Origin: Myxococcales bacterium
GTDB taxonomy: Bacteria; Myxococcota_A; UBA9042
Reading direction: 5' to 3'
NCBI GenBank assembly: GCA_009692425.1
Contig: SHZF01000039.1
Span: 1-40,669, forward strand
DNA length: 40,669 nucleotides
Below are positions 12,162 to 21,745 of this stretch, piece after piece. Position 1 is the stretch's first letter, and every line of letters starts with the position of its first letter. Position numbers and translations under genes: made by a program. The notes below the pieces were generated by a model, which was not told the origin of the DNA, made no database searches, and saw only the letters and a list, made by a program, of their open reading frames with translations.

Positions 12162-14144
12162 ATGAATGCCCAGCGCCTTGCTCGTGCCCTGTTGTGCGCA
12201 AGCGCCCTGCTCGCTGCGCTGCCGGCCGCCGCTGCGGTGCCCACCCTCGTCCCCGTCCATGGTGCCCTGCTCGCGCCCGGCGGGCTGCCGGTCCCGGACG
12301 GGCTGTACGAGGTGAAGTTCCGCATCCACGACGCGGAGACCGGCGGCAAGGAGCTGTGGACCGAGGGCCTCGTGCAGGTGGGCATCAAGAACGGCGGCTT
12401 CTTCACGACTCTCGGCCAGAAGACGCCCTTGGGCGCCGCGCTGGCTGTGGCGACGGCCAACGGGCAGGCGTGGCTTGGGGTGCAGGTCGAAAGCGAGCCA
12501 GAACTGCCGCGCCGGGTGTTGGCTGCGGTGCCGTTCGCGCTGCGGGCGGCGCTGGCCGAAGGACTCGACTGTTCTGGTTGCATCGGTGCCACGCACCTGA
12601 GCCCGAACCTACTCAACGATTTTGTGAAATCGGCCAACCTCGCCAAGGTCGCGGTCACGGGCAAGTTCGAAGACCTGAGCGGCAAGCCCGACTTCTCCGC
12701 CTACGTGGCCAATGGCGCCCTGGCCGAAGTGGCGCTGACGGGCGCCTTCGGCGACCTCAAGAAAGTCCCGCAAATGGCCAAGGTGGGCACCGCGTGCGGC
12801 AGTGGCCTCGCGGTCAAGGGCATCAAGGCCGACGGATCGCTCGACTGCACCGCGGTATCGGCCAGCTTGCCCTTGGATGGCCTCGCGCAGATTTCGAACG
12901 GCCTGCTGCAGAACGTGTTCGTCGACAGCTTTGCCGGCGGCTCGATCCCGATCCCCGACGCCGACCCGATCGGCGTGTGGCTGCAGGCGCCTGTCCCCGA
13001 CCTCGGCACCGCGCTCGAGCTCAGCGTCAGCATCGACCTGACGACGACGAGCACCGGCCAGATTCGCCTCAAGTTGTATGCCCCCGACAACACGGAGTAC
13101 CTGCTGCACGACAAGGGCGGCGACGCGAACGTACTCAAGGTGACGTACCCCAAGCCCGACCTCCCGGTGGCCGGCGATCTGACGACCTGGGTCGGCAAGA
13201 ATCCGCAGGGCTCGTGGAAGCTGCACATCGTCGATACCAAGGCCGGCCTCGGCGGCAACGACGGCCAGGTCAAGGCGTTCGTCGTCACGGTCAAGACGCT
13301 GGCGTCAGGCAAGCTGCTCGTCAACGGCAACCTCGCCGTCAAGGGGACTGTCGTAGCGGGCGGCAACATCGACGCGACCCACGGCCTGCAGATTCCGGTC
13401 GGCAACGTGACGCCGCCCTGCGACAAGGCCAACGTGGGCGCCATCCGCGTCGATCCCGTGGCGGGCCAGTTGTTGGTGTGCGATGGGTTGAATTGGCGCA
13501 CGCTGACGTTCCTGGCGCTGTGCGGCAACGGCGTGTTGAACGTCGGCGAGGAGTGCGACGACAGCAACCTGACGAAGACCGACGCGTGCACCGACGTGTG
13601 CAAGAAGGCGAAGTGCGGCGATGGCATCGTCCAGGCCGGCGTCGAGACGTGCGACGACGGCAACGAGATCGACGGCGACGCGTGTCCGAAGACGTGCAAA
13701 GTCGTTGCGCTGCAGGCCTGCGCGATCAAGGAGGCCGAGCATCCCTCGTACACCACGCCCGCGAAGGATGTCGTGCTGTGCGGCAACAAGTATGCGCCGT
13801 CGAACATGAACGGGGCGTGCAACGCGGGTTGGTCGGTGTGCCGCCTCGCCCAGTGGAATGCGCGCTATCCGAAGGGCAGCTTCCCCGGCGGCAAGCAGGC
13901 ATCGTTTGGCGTCGATCAGACCGCGCGCTCGTGTGGCGTATGGAATGCGGGCGCCCCGGTGAACGGCGAGACTTGGTGCTGCACGAACTGCAACGACGGC
14001 TACAATCCATGGAACAGTGGCAAGTACTTGCTGGCCGACAATGGCACCACGATCCTGAAGGGCTCGGGCGGCTGCTGCGGCTGGGACACCACGTTCTCGG
14101 ATGGCTCGTCGTCGAATATGGCGGTCTACTGCTGCCGCGACTGA
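12162..14144 (+). CDS. Secreted modular protein: P-domain plus myxococcal Cys-rich repeats
   Basis: 660 residues. The start at 12162 gives a clean signal peptide ([19 protein letters not shown]). Residues 26-150 form the same module as in the fibrinogen-like protein at 1865-3610 ([38 protein letters not shown]). About 250-382 is a proprotein-convertase P-domain-like beta sandwich ([36 protein letters not shown]). About 453-513 has two myxococcal disulfide repeats ([31 protein letters not shown]). The last 145 residues are Cys-, Asn- and Trp-rich with an unknown fold ([18 protein letters not shown], ending YCCRD). A surface-exposed binding protein is likely. It follows the amidase gene by 46 bases and may be the last gene of that run. 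Confidence 0.8.
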
Positions 14145-14180: not shown

Positions 14181-15368
14181 TTACAGCAAGGGCGGCAGGA
14201 TCAGCCCCGCCAGTGCCGCGAAGTACAGGACCGTCGTCGAAATCATCCCCGACTTGTTGAGGCGCGTCGCCTCTGCCTCCTTGCCGTCGTCGTGCAGGTG
14301 CGTCGTGCGCACCACGATGGCGATGCCGGCCATCACGTATAAGTACGTCGCGATGTACACCTTGTCGATCAGCACGAGGTACGCGATGTCGGGCAGGTCC
14401 TGGTTGAGCGTCATCTGCAACGCGACCACGGTCAGCAGCGACGTGATGCCGAGTTCGACGCGGCTGTCGACGTAGCTGGTGCGGAACAGGAACATCATCG
14501 ACGCGCACAGCACGACGCACACCACCGGCAGCAGCATCTTGATGAGGTGCGGCACGGGCGGGCGGTGCACGGGCAGTTCGATGCGCGCCCGGCTGAATTC
14601 AAGGTGCTTGGCCGTGCGCGGGTCGCCGAAGTTTGTCGCGTAGTGGCGCACCTTCAACACCAGCTTCGGCGTGCCGATAGCGAGGCCGGGCAGCTTGATG
14701 TCCGGGTTCATCGAGATCGGCACGGTGTCCGGCACATACGTCATCGCCTCGACGCTCAGGTTCTTGTCCTCGAACTCGATGAAAAGCACCTGCTTGTCGA
14801 GCGGGTAGTCGTAGAGCGGGAGTTTGCACGAGAAGCGGCCCTGCACACGCACGACTTGGTAGCGCTGGCCGTCGTCGAGTTCCTGCGGGGCTTCGTTGTC
14901 GTTGTTGCGGATGTGGCCCCACAACTCGGCGGGGTTGACGAACTCCATCGACTCAGCGGGATCGAAGTCTTTGCTCGTCCAACGGAACCACAGGTAGACG
15001 TCGGCCGCGTAGGTGTGCGTCTTGAGGTCGAGGCTCTGGATGTCGTTGAGGTAGGCACCGACGACGACTTTTTCGCCCTTGATCTCGGCGGCGGGCTCTG
15101 CGGCCTTGGCGTCTCCTTCACCAGCCGCCGCTTCAGGCGCGGCGTCTGCAGTCGGCGGGGTGGCGTCGGCCGGGGCGCCTGCGCCGGCGGGCTCTGCAGC
15201 CGGAGGGGGCGCGTTTTCGACTTCTACCGCGGCCATGGCGGGCAGGCCAATCAGCAGCACAAGGGCAGGCAGGGCGACCAGACGGGCACGCTTGCCGATG
15301 CGACCCCAACGGCGCCGGCGCCGCGCGGAGGAGGAGACTTCGGGAAGAACTTCGGGCGGGCTGAACAT
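14181..15368 (-). CDS. Pentameric ligand-gated ion channel (prokaryotic Cys-loop receptor family)
   Basis: 395 residues. The ATG at 15368 has GGAGG five bases upstream. An Arg-rich start and signal-like segment (ALVLLIGLPAMA) are followed by a Pro/Ala linker (52-95). The ligand-binding beta-sandwich domain spans about 98-268 and includes the loop CKLPLYDYPLDKQVLF: Cys181 is present but its usual partner is Leu, as in other bacterial members. Four membrane helices follow: M1 about 275-295, M2 about 302-320, M3 about 336-354, M4 about 374-394. M2 contains SLLTVVALQ, close to the ELIC pore helix, and a Glu at its cytoplasmic start, hinting at cation selectivity. Such channels open on amines, protons or other ligands; the ligand here is unknown. 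M3-M4 is joined by a short loop. It stands 185 bases downstream of the Cys-rich lipoprotein gene. Confidence 0.88.
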   Translation of the reverse strand: MFSPPEVLPEVSSSARRRRRWGRIGKRARLVALPALVLLIGLPAMAAVEVENAPPPAAEPAGAGAPADATPPTADAAPEAAAGEGDAKAAEPAAEIKGEKVVVGAYLNDIQSLDLKTHTYAADVYLWFRWTSKDFDPAESMEFVNPAELWGHIRNNDNEAPQELDDGQRYQVVRVQGRFSCKLPLYDYPLDKQVLFIEFEDKNLSVEAMTYVPDTVPISMNPDIKLPGLAIGTPKLVLKVRHYATNFGDPRTAKHLEFSRARIELPVHRPPVPHLIKMLLPVVCVVLCASMMFLFRTSYVDSRVELGITSLLTVVALQMTLNQDLPDIAYLVLIDKVYIATYLYVMAGIAIVVRTTHLHDDGKEAEATRLNKSGMISTTVLYFAALAGLILPPLL

Positions 15369-15553
15369 GGCCACCTCCAGGAAGACAGGCACCACGCGCT
15401 CGAGGGCCCCGGACCAACAGGCGTGTGCGGAAAGCGATGCGAGGGTCGGGGCAGAACCGCCGAGGCTTGGCGAGCGAATCTGAGTATCCGGGCAAGTGGC
15501 GGCCGGCGTAAAGGGCTTTGCCACCGATGTTTAGCTCGGCGCGGCGCCCTGGC

Positions 15554-17977
15554 CTATTTCGGGTCCCGGCAGCAGCGGAAACCGACGCTTGCCGCCAGCG
15601 TCGCCGGCGCCGCAAACGCGCGGGCCGAGGTGCGCACTTCGGCCGCGCCGTCGCCGAACCAGCCACCGCGCAGCACGCGCGCCGTTCCCGTCACCGGTCC
15701 CTTGGGATTCGTCGTGCCCTTCGGTACGCCGGCATACGTTTCGGCGCCGTACCAGTCGGCGACCCACTCGCGCACGTTGCCGGCCATGTCGTGCTGGCCC
15801 GTCGGACTCTGGCCCTGCGGGCTCGCGCCGACTGCGTGGGGGCCCTTGGGCAGGCACCCCGCGAAGTTGGCCAGCGCGCACGTCGGCGCAGCATTGCCCC
15901 ACGGGTACCGCCGGGCGTCCTTACCGCGCGCGGCCAGCTCCCACTCCGCTTCGGTGCACCGGCGCCCGCCGCCAGCAAACGCGCAGTAGGTGCCCGCCTG
16001 TGCCCAGTTGACGAAATTGACCGGCATCGCTTCCTTGCCCGCAGCGCCAACCGTCGCGTCTGGCTGACCAAGCCCGCCGGCATCGCTGCACGCGCCCGCA
16101 TCGACGCACTTCGTGTAGCCCGCCGCCGTCACCTCCGTCTTGTCGACGAAGAAGCCGAGCAGCGCGACGTCGTGGGACGGCTTCTCGTCTTGCTTGCATT
16201 GGCTGTCGACGGCGGCGTTGCAGCCCATGGCAAACGTCGCACCCGCCACGAACGCCATGCCGGCCGGCGCGACGGCCTTGGTGCACTTGCCTGCGCTGCA
16301 GTACTGGTCCAGGCCGCACGCTACGCCGACCGTCACGGGCTTGACGACGCAGCCCTTCTTCCCATCGCACGCCTGGGTCGTGCACGCGTTCTTGTCGTCG
16401 CAGAGCTTGGCCGCACCCGCGAGGCACGCGCTGTCCTTGCAGTGGTCGCCCTCGGTGCACAGGTCCTGGTCCGCATCGCACGGGCCCGTCTGCGCGGTGT
16501 GCTTGCACTTGCCGTCGGCCTCGCAGCCGTCGTACGTGCACGGGTTCTTGTCGTCGCACGGGTTCTGCTTGCCGACGCAGAGGCCGGCTGCGCACGAGTC
16601 CTGCAAGCTGCACGCGTTGCCGTCGTCGCAGGTCTTGCCGTCCAGCGCCGCCGCCAGCCCGCACAGCCCGGTGAACGGCTCGCACAGGGCGACCTCGCAC
16701 GCCGTCCCCGCCACGCACGCCTTGGCAGGACCGGCCACGCACTTGCCCGCTTTGCACGCGTCGCCCTCGGTGCACGCATTGCCGTCGATGCACGCGGTAT
16801 CGGTGGTTGGCGTCGCGCTGCAGCCCTGCTTCGCCGCGCACGTGTTCAGCGTGCACGCATTGCCATCGTCGCACGCCAGCGGGCTCGGCAGATTGACGCA
16901 CCCGGTCAGTTTGTCGCAGGCGTCCAGCGTGCAGTCGATGCCGTCGTCGCAGGCCGTCGGCTTGCCGGCGCACACGCCGCCGTCGCCGCACGTGTCGGCA
17001 CTGCTGCACGCGTTGCCGTCGTCGCAGGCGGCGCCAGCCGTCGGCTTGCCCGCGCACACGGAATCCTTGCACACCAACGGCACGCACGGGTCCTTGCCCG
17101 CACAATCCACCGCCACCTGGCACGAACAAGACCCGGCGCCGCCCTTGCACAGGCCGCCTGCGCACGCGTCGTTCGCCGTGCACGAGTCGCCATCGGTGCA
17201 CGCGGCCGCCGTCGGCGTGTACAGGCAGCCCAGTGCCGCGTCGCACGTTTCGGCGGTGCACGGGTTGTTGTCGTTGCACGCTGCGGTCTGGGGCTCGTGC
17301 GTGCACCCCTTCTTGCTGTCGCAACCGTCGAACGTACACAGCGCACCGTCCTGGCACGACAACTGCACGGGCTGGTCGCTGCACGTGCCGAACACGCACA
17401 CGGTGCCGTCGAACGCGGTGACGCCTTGCAACGTCACGCACTTGCCGCCGCCGCACCCGGTGCCGTCGGCGACCGCCTTGGGCACGCACTGGCCCGCCAC
17501 GCACGCCAGCACCTGACAGGGCGACACCGGTTGGACGAGGGCGAGGCAGTCCGCATCCGTCGCGCACGGCCCGGTGGTGTCGCCGCCCGCGGTCTCGGGC
17601 ACGTTCGCGTCACCGTCGCCCTCGCCCACGCTGTCGGTGACAGCGTCGTCGACGTCCGCTCCGTCGAGCGCACGGGAGCCCGAGTCTACGTCCGCGTCGG
17701 CAGGGGATGGCCCATCGTCGTGCGGCGCCAACAGGTCTGCGGGGTCCGCGTCGGCGCCGTCGCGTCCAGTTGCCGCGTCTGTCAACGTGACATCCGACGG
17801 GTCTGCTGCGGCGTCCACGGCGTCGCTGAAAAACGTCCCGCCACCTTGGGGCGGCTGCACGACGATGTTGCCGCATGCTGCGGCGCCGAGGGTCGTGGGC
17901 AACAGCGCGAGGCGCACCGAGATCGACAACGTGCAACGCAACAAGGGCCGCTCCGGGAACGCCAGAATCCACCTCAC
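15554..17977 (-). CDS. Cys-rich repeat lipoprotein with FGE/sulfatase-modifying-factor-like domain
   Basis: 807 residues. The GTG at 17977 lies three bases after the stop of the HExxH gene. The leader LALLPTTLGAAAC has a lipobox with Cys35. An Asp/Ala-rich linker (about 45-130) precedes roughly twelve Cys-rich repeats of the type CDDGNACTxxxCxxxxGC (about 138-560), common in myxobacterial surface proteins. The last 240 residues are a formylglycine-generating-enzyme-like (SUMF1) domain: GMAFVAGATFAMGC, FFVDKTEVTAAGY, PVNFVNWAQAGTYCAF, DMAGNVREWVADW, RVLRGGWFGD, VGFRCCRD. The paired cysteines that bind copper in true FGE, normally just after RGGS, are absent, so this is probably a binding domain, as in many FGE-like surface proteins. 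It probably sits on the outer surface and is translated together with the HExxH enzyme. Confidence 0.82.
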   Translation of the reverse strand: MRWILAFPERPLLRCTLSISVRLALLPTTLGAAACGNIVVQPPQGGGTFFSDAVDAAADPSDVTLTDAATGRDGADADPADLLAPHDDGPSPADADVDSGSRALDGADVDDAVTDSVGEGDGDANVPETAGGDTTGPCATDADCLALVQPVSPCQVLACVAGQCVPKAVADGTGCGGGKCVTLQGVTAFDGTVCVFGTCSDQPVQLSCQDGALCTFDGCDSKKGCTHEPQTAACNDNNPCTAETCDAALGCLYTPTAAACTDGDSCTANDACAGGLCKGGAGSCSCQVAVDCAGKDPCVPLVCKDSVCAGKPTAGAACDDGNACSSADTCGDGGVCAGKPTACDDGIDCTLDACDKLTGCVNLPSPLACDDGNACTLNTCAAKQGCSATPTTDTACIDGNACTEGDACKAGKCVAGPAKACVAGTACEVALCEPFTGLCGLAAALDGKTCDDGNACSLQDSCAAGLCVGKQNPCDDKNPCTYDGCEADGKCKHTAQTGPCDADQDLCTEGDHCKDSACLAGAAKLCDDKNACTTQACDGKKGCVVKPVTVGVACGLDQYCSAGKCTKAVAPAGMAFVAGATFAMGCNAAVDSQCKQDEKPSHDVALLGFFVDKTEVTAAGYTKCVDAGACSDAGGLGQPDATVGAAGKEAMPVNFVNWAQAGTYCAFAGGGRRCTEAEWELAARGKDARRYPWGNAAPTCALANFAGCLPKGPHAVGASPQGQSPTGQHDMAGNVREWVADWYGAETYAGVPKGTTNPKGPVTGTARVLRGGWFGDGAAEVRTSARAFAAPATLAASVGFRCCRDPK

Positions 17978-17980
17978 AGC

Positions 17981-19303
17981 CTAGGCGTCAGCCAGCGCAG
18001 CGTCAAAGAACTCACCCTCTGTCGCGGGCACCGTGCCAAACGTCACAGCCTCGTAGCGGGTGAACTCATCGTCGAGCCGCCGCATCTCGGCCAGCACGGC
18101 CCGCCCTGCGAGCGTCGGCTGGCCGTTGGCGAGCACCGTGTGGGCGCCGGCCCGGTTCATGCGCAGGATCGTGCGGAAGCGCTGCACGAACGCTCGATTG
18201 GCGGCGAGACCCGGTTCCTGCGCCAGCATGTGGCGGTACAGCATCGCGACAGGCTGGAAGGCGTGGACGGCGAGCACCACGCCGTGCAGTGGGCGCGGGT
18301 CGGGCCGCACCGGCGACGGGTAGAGCGGCGCAAACGCGTTGTGCAGCAGCGGGTCGAGCGTGAACAGCGCGTTGAGCTTGTTGTGTTGGAACTCGTGGAT
18401 CAGCGCCTCAGTCATCGTCATCTCCTGGGGGTGCAGTGTGAGATACACGAGCCCGACCGCCTCCTGGTAAGACGCCGACAGATGTTTTTCCGGGTGCCAG
18501 CCGACCGGGACGACCAGGCGCAGGAGCAGGCGCATCTCGTCGAACAGGAGTGGCAGGTGCCGCTCGATGGCCTGGCACGAACTCCGCAGCGCGGCAAGCC
18601 AGTCTTGCAGTGGCCGGTCGCCGAGGTCGAGCGTGTTGCCGCGCTTGTCGGGGTGGGCCTCGAAGTCCGACAGCGGGTTGTTGTCGGCGAGCGCCAGCCA
18701 GGTACCCGGCACGATCTCGCAGTACGGCCGCCGCAGTGTGCACGCAGGCAGCCCAGCCGCGGGAATCTGCGCGAGTTCGAGAGTACCGAGCACTTCGCCC
18801 TTGCCGAGCACGTCGAGGTGACCATCGCGCAGCCGCCACGCCCGCACGCGCGGCTCGGCCGTCACCTCCAGGTTGAGCGCGGGCGCCAACAGCCGCGGCA
18901 TCTGGCCTTCGGCGCCGGGGCCCAACGTCACGGGCACGCCGAGGTCGGCCGTCGCGGCCAGGTCGAGCAGCAGCAGCGCCGCCGCCTCGCGCAGCCAGCG
19001 GCCGAGGGCGGCGTAGTCTCGCGCGGGGCCGGCATGGCCCACGATGCAGCGCAGCAATGTGGACAGTGTCGGCATGCGCAGCGCGGCGAGGATGCGGCGG
19101 GGGTCGCGGCGCTGCACACGGCCGCACACGGCGAGCAATTCGTGGTACAGGGCCCGCTCAGTCTCAGGAACCGCGGCGACGGGCAGCCGGGCGAATTCGC
19201 TCCACAGCTGCTGAAGGCACGCGCCGTATACGCGCCGCAGGGTCGCCGTTGATCCGTCAGCGAGCGTCAGGTCAGGAACATCGAACGGGAGCGGCAGGGC
19301 CAT
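17981..19303 (-). CDS. HExxH-type peptide beta-hydroxylase-like protein
   Basis: 440 residues from the ATG at 19303, which has GGAAG seven bases upstream. The motif ALIHEFQHNKLNAL puts HExxH at 303-307, followed about 25 residues later by LYPSPVRPDPRPLHGV. That combination is characteristic of the HExxH-motif family named in databases as aKG-HExxH-type peptide beta-hydroxylases, usually found beside RiPP clusters; the assignment rests on motif memory. Such enzymes are thought to use Fe(II) and 2-oxoglutarate, not to cleave peptides. No signal peptide, so cytoplasmic. No radical-SAM enzyme or RiPP precursor is visible nearby. The only coupled gene is the downstream Cys-rich lipoprotein, whose Asp/Asn-dense repeats are a possible substrate. 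It is divergent from the gene at 19382, so a shared promoter region lies at 19304-19370. Confidence 0.75.
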   Translation of the reverse strand: MALPLPFDVPDLTLADGSTATLRRVYGACLQQLWSEFARLPVAAVPETERALYHELLAVCGRVQRRDPRRILAALRMPTLSTLLRCIVGHAGPARDYAALGRWLREAAALLLLDLAATADLGVPVTLGPGAEGQMPRLLAPALNLEVTAEPRVRAWRLRDGHLDVLGKGEVLGTLELAQIPAAGLPACTLRRPYCEIVPGTWLALADNNPLSDFEAHPDKRGNTLDLGDRPLQDWLAALRSSCQAIERHLPLLFDEMRLLLRLVVPVGWHPEKHLSASYQEAVGLVYLTLHPQEMTMTEALIHEFQHNKLNALFTLDPLLHNAFAPLYPSPVRPDPRPLHGVVLAVHAFQPVAMLYRHMLAQEPGLAANRAFVQRFRTILRMNRAGAHTVLANGQPTLAGRAVLAEMRRLDDEFTRYEAVTFGTVPATEGEFFDAALADA

Positions 19304-19381
19304 GACATTAGCTTCCACGCCCGCGCCACCCTGTCAACGACGGCGCGGGTGTGCTAGCGTTTCGCCGCCCGGAGGTTGCCC

Positions 19382-20671
19382 ATGTCGTCCGCCTTGCTGC
19401 CCCGATCGTGCCGGACCGCCCGGCTTGTCCTGCTCAGCACTGCGAGCATGGCCAGTATTGCCGCGGGCTCCTGCAGTGCGTCCGCGCCGCCACCCGCCAC
19501 GACCCCGGCCGGCTCCGACGCGGGCACCACGACTGGCAGCGCGAGCGACCTCGTCGCCCAGGGCGGCTTGCAGTTCACCTACGCCGGCAGCCCGATTGCC
19601 GTCGACTTCGCCGGTCAAGTTGCCGGGCACACCGTGACGCACAAGCTGAATCCCGGCGGCCAGGGCCCGGCCTGCATCACGCAGTTCGACCTCACCGTCG
19701 CGCGGCCCGACGGCTCGTGCCGGCTCGACCTGCAATGGATGCGCAAGGCCGACGGGCTCGCCCTCGCCAAGGCGCGCTTCTTTGCGGTGACGACGTCGGA
19801 CAAGAGCGGCAGCCTCGTGAACTGCGCCGGCTGGCCGAAGGAAGCAGGCGCGGGCGAAATCGTGTTCGAGGGCACGTCGGATACGGCCACGATCTCGCAG
19901 AATGCGGTACCGAAGCCGCACTCGGGCGACAAGGACGCGAAGGTGGCCGGCGTCACGGTGTCGATGTCCGGCACGCTGGACTTGAAGAAGGCGGGCAAGA
20001 AGTTCGCGCTCGACCTCGGCAAGCTCAGTTTCAAGGGCACGCTGCTGTCGAAGGGCCGCACCGACGTGTCATGCGGCTCGGCGCAAGCGGTCGGCACGGA
20101 GTTCTGTGCCAAGACGGCCGAGGGTGTCGACCCCGGCAGCCTGTTGCGCCGCAGCGTGAAGTTGCACCGCTGCGACGACGACGAGCCGTTCGATTTCGGC
20201 GCGCTGTGCGGCAACGACGCGATCTGGCTGGTGTCGCACCACATGTGGCTGGCGACCGCCGCGACGAACACGACCGAGGGCTTCGGCCCCGAACTCGCCT
20301 CGGCCTATGCGAAGTGGAAGGACAAGCGCGTCGGCACCGCCTTCATCCTCGCCGAGGGCGCCAAGAAAATCGCCGTGCCCGACCCCGCCAACCCCGGCAA
20401 GTTCAAGGCCGACGGGCCGGCACCGACGGCTCAGGAATGCAACGACCTCAAGGCGAAATACAAGATCCCCGACGACGTCGTGATGCTGTACGACAAGGGC
20501 AAGAAACTCGTGTTCGCCGATTCGAGCCTCCAGTCGGTTAACTACATCCCGTGGCACGTATTCGCGCGCGGCGATGGCGTCATTTCGTCGCTGCTGCCCA
20601 AGCCCGACGGCAAGGCTCCGACCGGAGCGGACGTCGATGCCGGCATCCAGAAGGCGATCGACGGAAACTAG
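19382..20671 (+). CDS. Lipoprotein with possible inactive thioredoxin-like domain
   Basis: 429 residues. The ATG follows GGAGG by six bases. The leader ASMASIAAGSC ends in a lipobox, followed by a Ser/Thr/Ala linker. The first half (55-235) is beta-rich with no family I recognise. In the second half, FDFGALCGNDAIWLVSHHMW resembles the start of a redoxin/thioredoxin-like domain, where the CxxC pair usually follows; here those positions read HHMWLAT, so redox catalysis is unlikely. The protein is probably attached to a membrane facing the periplasm or outside. It heads a plus-strand run; the next gene begins directly after its TAG. Confidence 0.65.
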   Translation: MSSALLPRSCRTARLVLLSTASMASIAAGSCSASAPPPATTPAGSDAGTTTGSASDLVAQGGLQFTYAGSPIAVDFAGQVAGHTVTHKLNPGGQGPACITQFDLTVARPDGSCRLDLQWMRKADGLALAKARFFAVTTSDKSGSLVNCAGWPKEAGAGEIVFEGTSDTATISQNAVPKPHSGDKDAKVAGVTVSMSGTLDLKKAGKKFALDLGKLSFKGTLLSKGRTDVSCGSAQAVGTEFCAKTAEGVDPGSLLRRSVKLHRCDDDEPFDFGALCGNDAIWLVSHHMWLATAATNTTEGFGPELASAYAKWKDKRVGTAFILAEGAKKIAVPDPANPGKFKADGPAPTAQECNDLKAKYKIPDDVVMLYDKGKKLVFADSSLQSVNYIPWHVFARGDGVISSLLPKPDGKAPTGADVDAGIQKAIDGN

Positions 20672-21745
20672 ATGACATTGCGAGGAGCCGTGCTGGCCAC
20701 CGGGGGTGCCGTCGTGCTGTGGGTCGGCGGCGCGGTGCCTGCCAGTGCGTGCACGGTGCGACTCAAGGCCGACGGCAACACCGCGGCCATTCAGCATGCC
20801 CTGGACCGGCCAGGCAACCCGTTGATTTGTCTTGAGTCTGGCGTATATAAGGGCGCGCGCCTGGTGGCGGCGCGTTCGGCGCGCATCCGCAACGTCGGCA
20901 AGGACCGTGTCGTGTTGTCGGCTGGCAGCCAGGGGCGCGTGCTCACCGTGATGCAGGCGGGCATCGACGTCGTGCTCGAAGGGATCACGCTGACCGACGG
21001 CAAGGCACCGCGCGGCGGTGGGGTCGCGCTCGATGCGGCGAGCCGGGTCACGCTGCGCGACTGCTGGCTCACGCAGAACACGGCGACCTCGCAAGGAGGC
21101 GGCGGCATCTCGGCGAGCGCGGGCGAAGTCGTGCTGGTGCGCTCGCGCGTGACCCACAACGTCGCCGACATCGCAGCAGCGATCGACCTGACCGGCACGG
21201 CCAAGGCCCGCATCGTCGCCAGCCTGATCGCCGACAACCAGCCGACCGCGACCGGGTTCGGCCCGCTGCGCCTGTCCGATGCCGCCAGCCTCGACCTGCG
21301 CCTGTCGACGCTGGCCTACAACGGCGGCAACGGTGTGTACCTGCAACCATCGGGTCAAGGCCGCACGCGCGCGACACTCGACTCGGTGATCGTGATGGGC
21401 AAGCCCGATGCGGTCGCCGTCAGCCGCACCGAAGCCGAGCATGTCACGGTCTCCCGCAGCGTGCTGCACGGTGCGGCCGGCTACGTCCCCAAAGACCTCG
21501 CGACCACGCACGCACTGCCCGGCTTCGACCTCGTCAATGCCGAGCGCTACCGCCCCATCGTCGGCTCTGCGGCCATCGCGCGCGGTCGCTGCAGCGGGGC
21601 CGACGCTGGCCGCGACCTCAGTGGCCGACTCCGGTCCGCCGTGTGCAGTGCGGGGGCCCTGGAGGCGGCGCCGGATGTGACCCGCAAGACTCTGCAAGAG
21701 CGCGCCAAGGCCGCCCAGGCCCAACCGAAGGAGTCGCCATGGTGA
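20672..21745 (+). CDS. Secreted right-handed beta-helix protein
   Basis: 357 residues. A signal peptide (GAVLATGGAVVLWVGGAVPASA) is followed by repeating short beta strands with G/N/A turns (VVLEGITLTDGKAPRGGGVAL, RVTLRDCWLTQNTATS, EVVLVRSRVTHNVAD, RIVASLIADNQ, LDLRLSTLAYNGGNGVYL). This is typical of a right-handed parallel beta helix, the fold of pectate lyases and Pmp-like surface proteins. No catalytic residues of a polysaccharide lyase can be picked out, so binding is as likely as catalysis. The ATG directly follows the previous stop, and its own stop overlaps the next start (ATGGTGA), so it is translationally coupled on both sides. Confidence 0.75.
   Translation: MTLRGAVLATGGAVVLWVGGAVPASACTVRLKADGNTAAIQHALDRPGNPLICLESGVYKGARLVAARSARIRNVGKDRVVLSAGSQGRVLTVMQAGIDVVLEGITLTDGKAPRGGGVALDAASRVTLRDCWLTQNTATSQGGGGISASAGEVVLVRSRVTHNVADIAAAIDLTGTAKARIVASLIADNQPTATGFGPLRLSDAASLDLRLSTLAYNGGNGVYLQPSGQGRTRATLDSVIVMGKPDAVAVSRTEAEHVTVSRSVLHGAAGYVPKDLATTHALPGFDLVNAERYRPIVGSAAIARGRCSGADAGRDLSGRLRSAVCSAGALEAAPDVTRKTLQERAKAAQAQPKESPW

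Follow-up and report, generated by a model that had tools for sequence, protein, structure and literature searches.

Enzymes of the aKG-HExxH type hydroxylate Asp/His, Gln or Pro residues in RiPP precursors (PMC12636437; PMC13060819). As recounted in PMC12636437, ChlBH/ChlH is an aKG-HExxH beta-hydroxylase fused to a radical-SAM protein (PDB 8s5f; Morishita et al., 2024); it is a partner of radical-SAM RiPP enzymes, and ChlBH targets Asp and His of its precursor. PflC/PosC, from the same superfamily, hydroxylate Gln and also cleave the backbone at ARMD (PMC12636437). These proteins, together with BpmH/BipH and PesO, are stand-alone and act on peptides of RiPP clusters that contain MNIO enzymes. 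The His-Xaa-Ser (HXS) RiPP system has been described as comprising HxsA to HxsD (Haft and Basu, as cited in PMC9062424) and is covered by the NCBIfam models TIGR03976/03978 and NF038313/038315. Our searches of the open-access literature returned no report on HXS chemistry or product structure, and nothing relevant on HxsA/HxsD. Nor did a search of the open-access literature, to which most subscription journals do not belong, bring up an aKG-HExxH enzyme described as an HXS component. Both the family and the system are already known; a link between them may already be recorded in papers outside this search. In this study, we characterized a gene located in a window of 40,669 nucleotides, that is, the whole stretch of myxobacterial DNA analysed here, and we compared its surroundings with those of its homologues.

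Results

The gene at 17981-19303 (minus strand) is intact, with an ATG at 19303 and a stop codon at 17981-17983. Its product has 440 residues and carries the sequence HEFQH at residues 303-307. The TIGR04267 profile matches it with 95.2 bits, over a curated cut-off of 40, and with 98.5 bits in a genome-wide search; the genome search revealed a single HExxH gene in the source genome. By sequence, the closest solved structures are those of SjiH (22nu/22ob) and ChlBH (8s5f). An AlphaFold model built from 27 homologues (pLDDT 92.2, pTM 0.91) retrieved the same two proteins with Foldseek, SjiH at E 1.8e-13 (22ob) and ChlBH at E 2.6e-9 (8s5f). Beyond these two, nothing significant was retrieved, the best unrelated match having an E of 2.6. 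SjiH is the top fold match over the full length (TM 0.66/0.70) but shares 20% identity; its PDB molecule name is radical SAM core protein, and a search of the open-access literature for a paper on SjiH gave nothing relevant. The residues invariant across the 27 homologues include H303, E304, H307, K309, S330, P331, R333, D335, R337, P338, S276 and H347. The HExxH motif and the SPxRxDxRP motif (330-338) align with 22nu and 8s5f, whereas the invariant H347, looked at in the search for the third iron ligand, aligned with no His of either structure. The enzyme thus has in common with ChlBH/ChlH the HExxH...K and SPxRxDxRP motifs and the overall fold. Unlike ChlBH/ChlH, it lacks a radical-SAM fusion, and the identity between them is about 20% or less. 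Altogether, profile, sequence and fold support that this protein is a genuine member of the aKG-HExxH peptide beta-hydroxylase family, as the initial annotation had proposed from the sequence.

Downstream of the enzyme gene, at 15554-17977 on the same strand, lies the Cys-rich lipoprotein gene that had been noticed before. The protein is real: counted from the first GTG it comprises 807 residues, with a lipobox-like ...LGAAAC, and it contains 77 Cys and six Dicty_CTDC stretches (PF00526). Moreover, it bears a C-terminal FGE-sulfatase-like domain (PF03781, residues 573-804, 125 bits) that had gone unmentioned. About twelve CDDGN-type repeats had been counted, which is a loose figure: there are three exact CDDGN and eight C-x-D-[GKND]-[ND] motifs. 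The first GTG lies 3 nt past the enzyme stop codon, and the reported three-base gap is correct if this GTG is the true start. However, translation from a TTG further on, at 17929, would yield a lipoprotein signal that is just as plausible. Because of this alternative start, and of gaps of about 40-220 nt in seven related enzyme-lipoprotein pairs, joint translation of the two genes is not established.

On the other side of the enzyme, a divergent lipoprotein-like gene with no family match (19376-20671, plus strand) is syntenic with the enzyme in five relatives. It is followed by a gene for a beta-helix protein (20672-21745, plus strand; PF13229 at 24.3 bits, under the cut-off of 25.9), which by its synteny marks the conserved locus and is also found at the corresponding locus of G004, a related genome in which no enzyme was found. 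The beta-helix, 240-aa, cysteine-synthase-like and YqeY-like neighbours were discarded as partners: their order is the same with or without the lipoprotein, indicating plain synteny.

Within the window's own family, the surroundings of the enzyme showed no small RiPP precursor, which agrees locally with the absence stated in the initial annotation. However, the source genome encodes an HxsA4 precursor and radical-SAM machinery on other contigs. The precursor (G000:C45:108736-109044; 102 residues) scores 92.3 over a curated HMM cut-off of 55 and ends in ...EHCSHGSHGS...HGSW, a repeat without Asp or Asn. HxsB (G000:C32:21648-23051; 502 over 370) belongs to an operon on contig C32 that also comprises two radical-SAM genes, HxsD (52.6, narrowly over 50) and an HxsD-like gene (63.3 over 41). 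Like the HXS system described, this genome therefore holds the core set of HxsA4, HxsB and HxsD, as well as the HxsD-like protein, over curated cut-offs. Unlike in that system, the genes are spread over several contigs, with the enzyme on C73, HxsB and HxsD on C32 and HxsA4 on C45. This dispersal accounts for the lack of a precursor in the window.

Distant homologues of the enzyme offer a different picture. Among 76 non-redundant loci, radical-SAM genes occur near the enzyme in 28; the HxsB family, a 500-aa radical-SAM protein, and the HxsD family are both found in 18, and HxsD-like proteins in 16. Representatives of these loci matched the curated profiles of HxsA4 (116.6 over 55), HxsB (544 over 370), HxsD-like (82 over 41) and, narrowly, HxsD (51.2 over 50). 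The short repeat ORF of these loci is HxsA4, with (HGS)n tails ending in W; all complete tails end in ...H-G-x-W. The enzyme gene overlaps HxsB by 4 nt at L166, L178 and L180, and another radical-SAM gene by 4 nt at L151, L168 and L171. HxsC4-like proteins of L136 and L151 matched HxsC/HxsC4 far below the cut-offs, and an NCBIfam scan of two further neighbours gave no match. Whereas PflC/PosC, BpmH/BipH and PesO have MNIO enzymes in their clusters, the loci described here hold HxsB/HxsC4-like radical-SAM and HxsD proteins. The precursor type also differs from that of ChlBH/ChlH, being here HxsA4 with its (HGS)n repeat.

Several other features of these neighbourhoods were recorded. Seven Myxococcota HXS loci (L132, L136, L151, L158, L168, L175 and L178) pack numerous different radical-SAM genes into 20 kb, exceeding the classical HxsB/HxsC pair. 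Loci of the Nannocystales type (Enhygromyxa, Plesiocystis) and relatives, namely L150, L151, L157 and L175, conserve a convergent gene next to the enzyme, one gene downstream; its product is rich in Asp/Thr and looks secreted. In four genomes of the same family, a second paralogue clade of the enzyme (L034-L036, L038; L185, L186, L188, L190) lies 3-4 nt upstream of a gene whose 217-aa product was identified by eye as an RluA-like pseudouridine synthase. As this coupling is confined to that clade, the RluA-like protein was set aside as a general partner. Finally, L118 (CAMDBH010000005.1), titled as a Klebsiella pneumoniae MAG, is a myxobacterial locus that matches G001:C5 of the window's family, and its label looks wrong.

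We then asked how enzyme and HXS genes are distributed over 237 Myxococcota genomes, using Fisher tests that ignore shared ancestry. HxsB is present in 57 of the 58 enzyme-bearing genomes and in 26 of the 179 without the enzyme (57/1/26/153; 3e-33 with ancestry ignored). Outside the window's family the counts are 39/1/25/153 (7e-25, likewise uncorrected for ancestry), and the association is seen in several families (f16, f20, f21, f24, f31, f33, f38, f43 and others). The sole enzyme genome without HxsB, G169, is in 720 contigs, is 86% complete and contains an HGS-repeat fragment. At the loose threshold of E <= 1e-3, all 58 enzyme-bearing genomes have an HxsA4-type match, and so do about 45 genomes without HxsB. 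The control RiPP marker YcaO showed no association with the enzyme (p = 1). Copy numbers also track, since two HxsB genes were found in 9 of 9 genomes with two enzyme copies and in 11 of 48 with one (p = 1.9e-5). Moreover, for 19 of the 42 enzyme genes outside the family, HxsB resides on the same contig, 4-31 kb away. This physical linkage is support independent of the ancestry-uncorrected p-values. The 26 genomes that have HxsB and no enzyme include G004, which carries the same HGS repeat. Tailoring by the enzyme would thus be optional in the HXS system.

Discussion

We consider it probable that the enzyme is an aKG/Fe(II)-dependent hydroxylase of a dispersed HXS RiPP system and that it acts in trans on HxsA4. 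The observed basis for this role comprises family, fold and motif, the HXS set of its own genome, the co-occurrence across Myxococcota and the clustering in distant relatives. The location of the enzyme and the HXS genes on separate contigs within the window's family speaks against it. From this basis we infer that the enzyme acts directly on HxsA4, and at which residue, and that it hydroxylates rather than cleaves oxidatively. In such a scheme, the enzyme, working in the cytoplasm, would bind HxsA4 and use Fe(II), aKG and O2 to hydroxylate residues of the HGS repeat, probably at His beta-carbons. This reaction could precede, follow or fall between the radical-SAM steps, and the partners would be HxsB, two further radical-SAM proteins, HxsD and the HxsD-like protein. 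By analogy with the characterized enzymes, beta-hydroxylation within the HGS repeat appears the most likely outcome, with His as the first candidate: of the two residues that ChlBH hydroxylates, His and Asp, the HGS repeat offers His alone, and it contains no Asn either.

A different substrate had been suggested by the initial annotation, namely the neighbouring lipoprotein, whose Cys-rich repeats the enzyme would hydroxylate at Asp/Asn before export. The two genes are adjacent on one strand, possibly 3 nt apart, and the repeats place Asp/Asn next to Cys. We surveyed 36 related genomes, of which 24 have enzyme homologues, and a second set of 80 public-genome loci, many of them the window family's own loci again. 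The FGE/Cys-repeat lipoprotein adjoins the enzyme in 8 of the 20 window-family loci but is missing from the other 12, and in the public-genome set it was never beside the enzyme outside the family. In G004, the same locus retains the lipoprotein (77 Cys, eight motifs) between the beta-helix gene and a gene of about 250 aa, but the enzyme is gone, and it was not found elsewhere in that genome. In G010, both genes are present but unlinked. Moreover, the source genome has the same Cys-rich repeat in at least 64 other ORFs, as against one HExxH gene. Given the pairing that is not conserved, the loss in G004, the unlinked genes in G010 and the many repeat ORFs, the adjacency is best read as a lineage-specific neighbourhood. 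Synteny and the natural deletion in G004 led us to reject the lipoprotein as the substrate, and we judge this reading highly improbable. The comparison with Asp/Asn hydroxylation of EGF-like domains found no support either, as the HxsA4 repeat has neither residue and the pairing is not conserved. Such repeat ORFs abound in this genome: the search behind the repeat count gave 150 scored Dicty_CTDC hits among 1621 candidates genome-wide, in at least 64 ORFs (for instance on C65, C105, C115, C128 and C137).

Two other explanations keep or loosen the tie to HXS. The enzyme might act on the HXS peptide by oxidative backbone cleavage or hydrolysis, trimming or removing the repeat peptide in the manner of PflC/PosC, instead of or in addition to hydroxylating it. 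These enzymes are from the same superfamily and combine both activities, and no dedicated protease was recognised in the HXS loci studied, in what was an unsystematic look. However, HxsA4 peptides have no ARMD-like motif, their complete tails keep a common end, and hydroxylation is the activity of most characterized members; cleavage seems unlikely. Alternatively, the enzyme could modify some other cellular protein and be inherited with HXS only through common lineages. The 26 genomes that have HxsB alone would fit this idea, as would the paralogue clade next to the RluA-like gene. Yet only one of the 58 enzyme genomes is without HxsB, and that genome is fragmented and still shows an HGS-repeat fragment. 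The HxsB linkage and the 4-nt overlaps in distant clades, the matching copy numbers and the YcaO control also argue against mere co-inheritance, which we regard as very unlikely. The reading that we favour thus remains hydroxylation of HxsA4 in trans.

If a hydroxylase of known chemistry is placed in the HXS system, each modified site should add +16 in mass, so that the product can be tested for. A broader proposal, which we hold to be evenly balanced, is that Myxococcota have a dedicated aKG-HExxH hydroxylase added to their HXS pathway. It would polyhydroxylate the (HGS)n tails, and the product would be a His-rich peptide of a new chemical type that perhaps binds metal. If this is true, cluster-based mining would miss the pathway in some lineages, because its enzymes are dispersed over the genome. 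More generally, where an aKG-HExxH enzyme has no precursor nearby, it may act on one encoded at an unlinked site, in which case adjacency alone misassigns substrates.

Two further genes of the window deserve mention. The product of the gene at 12162-14144 (plus strand) looks secreted and combines a P-proprotein domain with two Cys-rich DUF4215 repeats. The product of the gene at 14181-15524 (minus strand) has weak matches, below the cut-offs, to the transmembrane and ligand-binding domains of pentameric neurotransmitter-gated ion channels, and judging from these matches it is possibly a bacterial ligand-gated channel.
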